NCBI RefSeq assembly: GCF_963678975.1
Contig: NC_089273.1
Coordinates: 27,719,073-27,783,072 of the forward strand
DNA: 64,000 bases
Reading direction: 5' to 3'
Origin: Dysidea avara
Lineage: Eukaryota > Porifera > Demospongiae > Dictyoceratida > Dysideidae
Shown: one piece after another, positions 4,168 to 8,161 of the stretch
How the letters are laid out: each line of letters begins with the position of its first letter
Position numbering within the stretch: position 1 is the first letter of the stretch
Made by a program: the position numbers and the translations under genes
Notes under the pieces: generated by a model
Database searches by the model: none
Told to the model about the DNA's origin: nothing
Seen by the model: only the letters and a program-made list of their open reading frames with translations

Positions 4168-7100
4168 ACTTACCATTAGGAAGAGGAAGTTTCCATAACA
4201 AGGAGTTAGGATATTACTGTATACTACTGTACTCTAAATGATGCACATTTTCAGTAGCATTACACAATTAGGTGGTTAGTGATCTGAGTGATTCGAGTAA
4301 TTGAAGGGATCAGAGTGATTTCAGTGATCTGAGTGATTGGAGTGATCTGAGTGATTGGAGTGATCTGAATGACTTGAGTGATCCAAGTGATTCGAGTGAT
4401 TGGAGTGATCTAAGTGATTGGAGTGATCCGAGTGATGCGAGCGATCTGAATGATTCAAGCGATCTGAGTGTTTCCAGTGATCTCAGTGATTGCAGTGATC
4501 TGGGTGATTGGAGTGATCTGAGTGATTGGAGTAATCTGAGTGATTCGAGTGATCTGAGTGATTCGAGTGATCTGAGTGATTCGAGTGATTGCAGTGATCT
4601 GAGTGATTCAAGTCATCTGAATGATTCGAGTGATCTGAGTGATTCGAGTGATCGGAGTGATTCAGTGATCTGAGTGATTCAAGTGATCTGAGTGATTTGA
4701 GTGACTGCAGTGATTGCAGTGATCTGAGTGATTGGAGTGATTCAGTGATCTGAGTGATTCAAGTGATCTGAGTGATTCGAGTGATTGCAGTGATTGCAGT
4801 GATCTGAATGATTGGAGTGATCTGAGTGATTTGAGTGATCTGAGTGATTGGAGTGATCTGAGTGATTGGAGTGATCTGAGTGATTACAGTGATCTGAGTG
4901 ATTACAGTGATATGAGTGATTGTAGTGATCGGAGTGATTGGAGTGATCTCAGTGATTCTAGTGATCTCAGTGATTCGAGTGATCTGAGTGATTCGAGTGA
5001 TCTGAGTGAGTGCAGTGATCTGAGTGATTGAAGTGATCCGAGTGATTGGATTGATATGAGTGATTCTAGTGATCTGAGTGATTCCAGTAATCTCAGTGAT
5101 TCAAGTGATCTGAGTGATTGGAGTGATCGAGTGATTGAAATGATCCAAGTGATTGGAGTCATCCAAGTGATAGTAGTGATCAGAGTGATTGGAGTGATCT
5201 GAGTGATTCTAGTGATTGGAGTGATCTGAGTGATTGGAGTGATCTGAGTGATTCGAGTGGTCTGAGTGATTCGAGTGATCAGAGTGATTGGAGTGATTCC
5301 AGTGATCCAAGTGATTGGAGTGATCTGGTGATTCCAGTGATCTGAGTGATTCGAGTGATCTGAGTGATTCTAGTGATCTGAGTGATTCCAGTGATCTAAG
5401 TGATTGGAGTGATCTGAGTGATTGGAGTGATCTGAGTGATTGGAGTGATTTGAGTGATCCGAGTGATTGGAGTGATTTGAGTGATCCGAGTGATTGGAGT
5501 GATCTGAGTGATCTGAGTGATTCCAGTGATCTCAGTGATCTGAGTGATTCCAGTGATCTCAGTGATCTGAGTGATTCCAGTGATCTGAGTGATTCTAGCG
5601 ATCTGTGTAATTCGAGTGATCTGGGTGATTCAAGTGATTCGAGTGATTCGAGTGATCTGAGTGATTCGAGTGTTTCGAGTGATCTGAGTGATTCCAGTGA
5701 TCTGAATGATTGCAGTGATCGGAGTGATTGGAGTGATCTGAGTGATTGAACTGATCTGATCACTGGAATCACTCAGATCACTCGAATCACTCAGATCACT
5801 TGAATCACTGAAATTACTGCAATCACTCATATCACTCTAATTACTCAGATCACTCGAATCACTCAGATCACTCCAATCACAGCAATCACTCAGATCACTC
5901 CAATCACTTAGATCAATCGAATCACTCAGATCACTCGAATCACTCTAATCACTCAGATCAATCGAATCACTCAGATTACTGGAATCACTCAGATCACTGC
6001 AATCACTGCAATCACTCAGATCACTCCGATCACTCTAATCACTCAGATCACTCCAATCGCTCAGATCACTCCAATCGCAGCAATCACTCAGATCACTCCA
6101 ATCACTCAGATCAATCAAATTACTCAGATCACTCCAATCGCTCAGATCACTCCAATCGCAGCAATCACTCAGATCACTGCAATCACTCTGATCACTCCTC
6201 ACTCCAATCACTCAGATCACTCCAATCACTCAAATCAATCGAATCACTCAGATCACTCCAATCACTCAGATCACTGCAATCACTGCAATCACTCAGATCA
6301 CTCCAATCACTCAGATCAATCAAATCACTCAGATCACTTATATCACTCACATCACTCCAATCACTCACATCACTGCAATCACTGCAATTACTCAGATCAC
6401 TTGAATCACTCGAAACACTCAGATCACTTCAATCACTCGAATCACTCTGATCAATTGAATCACTCAGATCACTCGAATCACTCCAATTACTCAGATCACT
6501 GTAATCACTCAGATCACTTCTATCACTCACATCACTCCAATCACTCACATCACTGCAATCAATCACTCAGATCACTAGAATCACTCGAAACACTCAGATC
6601 ACTTCAATCACCCAGATCACTCGAATCACTCAGATCACTCAAATCACTCAGAATACTCGAATCACATAGATCACTCGAATCACTCAGATAACTCCAATCA
6701 CTCAGATCACTGGAATCACTCAGACCACTCAAATCACTCAGATCACTCGAATCACTCAGATCACTCCAATTATTGCAATCACTCAGATCACTCAGATCAC
6801 TTCAATCACTCAGATCACTCCAATCACTCAGATCACTCCAATCACTCAGATCACTCCAATCACTCAGATCACTTCTATCACTCACATCCCTGCAATCACT
6901 CCAATCACTCAGATCACTTGAATCACTCAGATCACTCCAATCATTGCAATCACTCAGATCACTCAGATCACTTCAATCACTCAGATCACTCCAATCATGC
7001 AGATCAGTCCAATCACTCAGATCACTTCTATCACTCCAATCACTCACATCACTGCAATCACTCCAATCACTCACATCACTGCAATCACTGCAATCACTCC

Positions 7101-8161
7101 AATCACTCACATCACTGCAATCACTGCAATCACTCAGACCACTTGAATCACTCGAACCACTCAGATCACTTCAATCACTCAGATCACTCCAATTACTCAG
7201 ATCACTGCAATCACTCAGATTACTCCAATCACTCAGATCATTTCTATCACTGCAATCACTCACATCACTGCAATCACTCCAATCACTCACATCACTGCAA
7301 TCACTGCAATCACTCATACCACTTGAATCACTCGAACCACTCAGATCATTTCAATCACTCAGATTACTCGAATCACTCAGATCACTCGAATCACTCAGGT
7401 CACTGGAATCACTCAGACCACTCGAATCACTCAAATCACTCAGATCACTCGAATCACTCAGATCACTTCAGTCACTCAGATTACTGGAATCACTCAGACC
7501 ACTCGAATCACTCAAATCACCCAATCACTCAGACCACTCGAATCACTCAAATCACTCCAATCACTGCAATCACTCAGATCACTCCTATCACTCAGATCAC
7601 TTCTATCGCTCACATCACTCCAATCACTCACATCACTGCAATCACTCAAATCGCTCACATCACTACAATCACTCGAATCACTCAGATCACTAGAATCACT
7701 CAGATCACTTCAATCACTCAGATCACTCGAATCACTCAGATCACTCGAATCACTCAGATCACTCCAGTTACTAAGATCACTAGAATCACTCAGATCACTC
7801 AAGTCACTCAGATCACTTCAATCACTTGAATCACTCAGATCACTCGAATCACTCAGATCACTCAAATTGCTTATATTACTCAGATAACTCGAATCACCCA
7901 GATCACTCCAATCACTCCGATCACTCAGATCACTCAGATCACTCCAATCACTCAGATCACTTCAATCACTCAGATCACTCCAATCACTCAGATTACTCCA
8001 ATCACTCAGATCACTCTGATCCCTTAAATCACTCGAATCACTCAGATCACTAACCACTTAATTGTGTAATGCTACTGAAATTGTGCATCATTTAGAGTAC
8101 AGTAGTATATAGTAATATCCTAACTCAGTGTTATGGAAACTTCCTCTCCCTAATGGTAAGT
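4168..8161. mobile_element. Foldback (FB-like) element built of opposed 9-bp satellite arrays
   Basis: The outer ~111 bp on each side (4168-4278 and 8051-8161) are inverted repeats of each other, beginning ACTTACCATTAGG and ending GGTGGTTAGTGATCTGAG. Inside, 4279 to about 5753 is a tandem array of the 9-bp unit GAGTGATCT/GAGTGATTN. From about 5757 to 8050 the same unit runs in reverse complement (CACTCAGAT/CACTCGAAT). The arms meet near 5755 almost without a spacer, giving a ~4 kb imperfect palindrome with arms of about 1.6 and 2.4 kb. FB transposons have long inverted ends made of short tandem repeats, so that is the best match. Because the unit is a multiple of three, long open frames (SDLSDSSDL-, SLRSLQSL- and [12 protein letters not shown]) appear on both strands; they are by-products, not genes. 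No transposase lies inside and I could not define a TSD. Confidence 0.85.

Follow-up and report, generated by a model that had tools for sequence, protein, structure and literature searches.

A probable foldback transposon family built of opposed 9-bp repeat arrays in the sponge Dysidea avara

The foldback element in the window

The window, that is, the whole 64-kb stretch of Dysidea avara DNA that was analysed (C2:27719073-27783072; no N), contains an inverted structure of 3,994 bp, whose parts are listed in Table 1. An earlier note on this DNA had described it as a foldback of about 4 kb, made of two opposed 9-bp arrays that meet with almost no spacer and are bounded by 111-bp inverted ends; this description is correct in each of these points. 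The two ends are inverted copies with 6 mismatches, and in the end-to-end alignment the identity is 94.6% over 112-113 bp, the match ending at ACTTACC...GGTAAGT. Tandem Repeats Finder reports an 18-bp unit in both arrays, with 83 copies for the left one (4278-5759) and 130, on the other strand, for the right one (5758-8051); the spacer between the arrays is zero. The 9-bp repeat is largely a dimer, AGTGATCTG being followed by AGTGATTNN. When the arrays are cut into 9-bp units, 160 of the 165 units on the left and 250 of the 256 on the right are intact, which agrees with the "about 160 and 250" units given earlier; an exact length of nine bases is found in 410 of the 421 units of both arrays together.

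Table 1. The foldback element and the adjoining MITE in the window
Feature	Position	Strand	Basis
Left terminal inverted repeat, 111 bp, tip ACTTACCATTAGG	4168..4278	+	End comparison; at least 41 matches in assembly
Left array, 165 nine-bp units, AGTGATCTG / AGTGATTNN alternating	4279..5757	+	Repeat finding and unit cutting
Right array, 256 nine-bp units, opposing the left array	5758..8050	-	Repeat finding and unit cutting
Right terminal inverted repeat, 94.6% identity to the left one	8051..8161	-	End comparison
Palindromic MITE, 52-bp arms, separate from the foldback family	8162..8288	.	1,277 first-look candidates, 40 scored

The two arms can be aligned with each other in many registers at an identity of about 80%. 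A one-to-one correspondence of units is confined to roughly the four outermost ones, the rare AAGGGATCA among them, and the variant CAGTGATGT occurs seven times in the right array and never in the left. No second foldback copy was found within the 64-kb window, and an Rfam search of the window gave no match at the gathering score. An AATAAA is located at 4047, about 120 bp upstream of the element, while the palindromic MITE directly abuts its right end; most of the scored relatives of the MITE match one arm plus the loop, at 91-97%.

Copies elsewhere in the genome

The assembly to which the window belongs (550,814,596 bases in 108 contigs) was searched with the left end, the tip and the array. 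The left 111-bp end has at least 41 matches, the window's own two ends counted; this is a lower bound, since 40 of 73 candidates were scored. Further copies of the 111-bp end therefore exist, and their absence, named earlier as an outcome that would refute the foldback reading, did not occur. The 22-base tip, with up to three mismatches allowed, is matched at 70 places (30 forward, 40 reverse, again including the window's two ends), as against 2 for the reversed control. In the retrieved loci, 83 of 86 exact-consensus tips, among which one place may recur in several loci, have at least three core repeats inside 330 bp; the remaining three are in L053, L054 and L086. A 42-base piece of the array, searched for without mismatches, is present 557 + 1,042 times in the assembly and its reversed control not once, so that a chance origin of the array is excluded. 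The 100 array places listed form six clusters, all on C1 and each less than 3 kb from a tip.

Copies range in length from 0.66 kb (the shortest, on C8) to 21.8 kb, or 26.6 kb where a 7.9-kb insert is included. The 11 copies with measured arms have totals of 1.2 to 21.8 kb, with a ratio of longer to shorter side between 1.0 and 20.4. Thirteen of 17 complete copies, those that were read through (the window copy, L032, L034-L041, L046/48, L079 and L080), consist of array only and contain no internal gene, with the proviso that L035 and L046/48 each have a 200-N gap in their arrays which could hide sequence. L035 also contains a patch of units in the wrong orientation and L066/67 alternating array blocks; the sequence of L076/77 was read near its ends only. 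Tandem-unit inverted repeats, a unique short terminal domain, dispersed copies of differing arm length and a target duplication of constant length, here 8 bp, which are the structural marks of a foldback family, are all present.

Target duplications and unoccupied targets

The flanks of the 17 complete copies were compared. The target duplication, whose definition had been proposed before, is 8 bp long, being perfect and adjoining both ends in 11 copies, altered in four and absent in two. Ten of the perfect duplications were called by script (L032, L034, L035, L037, L039, L040, L041, L043/45, L046/48 and L076/77), and that of L093/95, TAAAGGAA, was read from the letters, the left flank being too short for the script. 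The altered ones are 8 bp displaced by 4 bases in L036 and by 9 bases in L080, 9 bp and displaced in L038, and 7 bp in L066/67. Nine duplications, when compared, gave no strong consensus for a target motif; the octamer CGAAGGTC is shared by two copies, one on chromosome C7 and the other on chromosome C1 (C1:11271701).

For L046 and L035 unoccupied targets were found, that is, continuous DNA with a single octamer, in related copies of R15, a genomic repeat defined from L015. Several foldback copies directly interrupt R15, which lies less than 1.5 kb outside 11 of the 30 ends examined, some of these being the two ends of one copy (12 were listed, one of which was dropped as an array-only match). 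Nesting in R15 is thus frequent among the ends examined. In L015 it spans 561-1340, and it occurs once in the window, at 49465-50536.

No matching flank duplication was found in the window copy and in L079, whose right tip is altered, too. At the window copy, no direct repeat beyond chance is present either at the right junction or on the distal side of the MITE. The 6-base difference between its ends ties for the largest value among 12 copies, and therefore this copy looks old. Rearrangement or a chimeric origin would explain the absent duplication; for the Drosophila element Galileo, chimeric copies with mismatched flanks are described (PMC3573991).

Long, truncated and tip-only copies

Two long copies were considered as carriers of a transposase and rejected. 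The 26.6-kb copy has 7.9 kb of non-array DNA between its arms (L043, about 1215-9136), with two immunoglobulin-domain frames; the outer flanks have one matching 8-bp duplication, and either capture of gene sequence or a later insertion would account for the immunoglobulin-frame DNA. The 7.6-kb copy on C14 (L093-L095, C14:11019492-11027129), of which 1.5 kb of the interior and both edges were examined, has short array edges, a perfect 8-bp duplication and an interior resembling a retrotransposon gag, with matches to DUF1759 and a zinc knuckle that are both under the Pfam cut-offs. The gag-like sequence presumably belongs to BEL/Pao.

In L005, L007, L015 and L049, an end is followed by array and then by other sequence; no transposase was recognised within the approximately 0.6-1.5 kb examined beyond the array, and a frame of 106 amino acids in L049 has no Pfam match. 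No autonomous copy came to light in the sequence read. Of the end, L054 retains 82 bp, with no array following; L086 has two units, and L082 keeps 29 bp of the tip, beside other sequence that we take to be integrase-like. The tip matches L053, L089, L091 and L092 were discarded, there being no family sequence behind the tip.

Likeness of the two arms within a copy

The most instructive feature of the family is the likeness of the two ends within a copy. In 12 copies, the number of differing bases is 0 to 6 between the ends of one copy, with a mean of 2.92, and averages 5.95 between those of different copies; none of 20,000 random re-pairings of the ends gave a mean as low as the observed one. 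At tip base 12, 20 pairs counted by hand comprise 4 A/A, 15 G/G and a single mixed pair (p 0.001). The likeness extends into the arrays, where the outer 100, 200 and 300 bp are more alike within copies than after re-pairing (11 copies), the observed means being reached by 15, 0 and 0 of 20,000 shuffles, respectively. Both arms share 582 identical outer array bases in L046, 134 in L038 and, after a mismatch, 71 in L035. Because 10 of 24 ends are without their partner among the nearest relatives, and 4 of the 11 copies (the window copy, L037, L040 and L041) are below the shuffled mean in the outer 100 bp, this signal depends largely on L035, L038 and L046, which are the youngest copies; subfamily structure accounts for part of it.

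The likeness within a copy is such as would result if one end had served as template for the other, with divergence of the arrays afterwards. The unequal arms had earlier been ascribed to independent expansion of the arrays. Independent change of the arms stands; yet in the younger copies the arms still resemble copies of each other.

Proposed origin of the copies

Dispersed copies, 8-bp duplications, unoccupied targets and lengths from 0.66 to 26.6 kb argue for a foldback transposon and against an assembly artefact. With a probability of about 0.85, the element is a non-autonomous DNA transposon of foldback architecture that depends on a transposase acting in trans, with copying from end to end and later divergence of the arrays. 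The putative transposase would recognise the ends, and possibly the repeats too, and move the element; it would most likely cut at the ACWTACC tips and insert with an 8-bp stagger. One end together with its outer array would serve as template for the other, be it at birth or by later exchange between the arms. Subsequently, the inner arrays would lengthen, shorten and drift apart, each on its own, through unequal exchange or slippage, a turnover that would be weakest at the outer edge; in an old copy, that of the window for example, only the outermost units would still be shared.

The 9-bp repeats may be additional transposase sites. Such a role is documented for the Galileo repeats by footprinting and gel shift and has been suggested for those of Tetris (PMC3688188 and PMC4079207, respectively). 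Selection on the repeat core as a binding site finds no support in the rare unit variants, since these are spread evenly over the unit: the six core positions have 24 of them, out of 235 available neighbours, and the three linker positions have 7, out of 59.

A real contender for the arm likeness, which we consider somewhat less probable than not, is gene conversion that continues in the inserted copy instead of copying at birth. Long spacer-free inverted repeats can exchange sequence, and the two ends of one copy are indeed alike; against this, identity in L046, L038 and L035 persists at the outer edge but has disappeared further in, and older copies have diverged throughout, which a single copying event followed by decay fits at least equally well. 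In its strongest form, copying at birth would mean that every insertion is born palindromic, one end and its outer array templating the other in a one-ended, fold-back replicative birth, and that the 9-bp satellite exists only inside such elements. This form we regard as doubtful; if it were true, each jump of the element would make a mobile palindrome out of a satellite arm that was one-sided before.

It is very improbable that the structure is a functional source of double-stranded RNA or a Ser-Asp repeat gene and not mere transposon. The RNA of the 660-nt copy is predicted to fold into a single, nearly complete hairpin (-571 kcal/mol, z -43.6 against 20 shuffles), and the unit corresponds to three codons, with open stretches of up to 416 amino acids in the window arrays; the open stretches, however, occur in several frames, the longest lies outside the Ser-Asp frame, and the frames are broken by unit indels. 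A coding function of the arrays was therefore rejected, the open frames following from composition. A transcript across the element, which the earlier note places in an intron, might be a substrate of Dicer or ADAR, as suggested there.

Palindromes are known artefacts, and the 200-N gaps in L035 and L046/48 might be taken to favour an assembly or sequencing fold-back at the junction near 5757; such an origin is unlikely to the point of deserving hardly any credence, for the window itself is free of N, the flanks of the element differ, its ends show 6 base differences, its arms differ in length (165 against 256 units) and in content (CAGTGATGT on the right only), and other loci have this architecture too, together with target duplications. 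Equally little speaks for a local satellite that was expanded and inverted in place: the window copy has no target duplication, which such an origin would fit, but at the level of the family it is contradicted by dispersed copies whose ends are shared, by the 8-bp duplications and by the unoccupied targets, as well as by the listed array clusters near tips.

Relation to known foldback transposons

The transposon family proposed here is a new one of a known kind, that of FB, Tm1, Galileo and Tetris. FB of Drosophila melanogaster has units of 10, 20 and 31 bp and duplications of 9 bp, and TU of the sea urchin has 15-bp units; both have foldback arms of short tandem units and of variable length, as in the present family. 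The earlier comparison with FB transposons stands for the foldback build. Membership of the Drosophila FB family itself is not supported, the duplications being 8 bp and not 9 bp and no transposase having been seen in the sequence read. In the literature searched, neither this foldback family nor any sponge foldback family was described. Viral contigs gave no match to an 18-base end pattern and none to the array pattern, and 257 Gb of genome contigs gave three bacterial matches to the end 18-mer, no more than expected by chance.

Tm1 of root-knot nematodes, classified as Mutator/Foldback, is similar in its composite inverted repeats, variable tandem units, unequal arms and target duplications (PMC3169594). 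Its units are 13-15 bp, in contrast to 9 bp here, and its duplications 8-10 bp, most commonly 9, compared with 8 here; Tm1 further possesses an internal domain and, in one copy, a coding sequence for a Phantom-like transposase (PMC3169594), neither of which was seen in the 13 copies read through. Galileo shares long repetitive ends, unequal repeat numbers and ends-only copies (PMC3688188, PMC3573991), as well as chimeric copies without matching duplications (PMC3573991). It differs in its P-type transposase and 7-bp duplications (PMC3573991), those of the present family being 8 bp, and in repeats of about 210 bp (PMC3688188, PMC3573991) as opposed to 9 bp. Tetris of Drosophila virilis is likewise a non-autonomous foldback element whose internal tandem repeats give rise to satellite-like arrays; it has units of about 220 bp, compared with 9 bp here, and an inner domain, and its repeats also exist as long satellite arrays (PMC4079207), whereas all of the 100 array places listed here are near tips.

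With arms of about 0.2 to 11 kb in one family, the copies form a natural series for the origin of foldback arms. They can be ranked by how far the two ends of each have diverged, and the target duplications are mostly kept; whether foldback ends are copied from one another can thus be put to a direct test, and the family illustrates how a satellite can be carried and spread by a transposon. Inverted repeats of such size and without spacer are a likely hazard to replication and might also give rise to very long double-stranded RNA.

Further observations

L056 (C2:11829434) and L057 (C2:13730364), 1.9 Mb apart, have the same flank, TTTAGAAA, and the same end variant, and are probably products of an inverted segmental duplication. 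Among the at least 120 LINE relatives listed, Amphimedon queenslandica is the one animal given by name (39-40% identity), and one entry is labelled as an Acidobacteria MAG. Within the window, a coding-type tandem repeat of 45 bp (27771-28159, about 8.6 copies) is located inside open frames at 27413-28199. Upstream of the element, the stretches 2226-2650 and 3400-3840 are nearly identical in translation on both strands, which suggests that a few hundred bases were duplicated here locally, in direct orientation.
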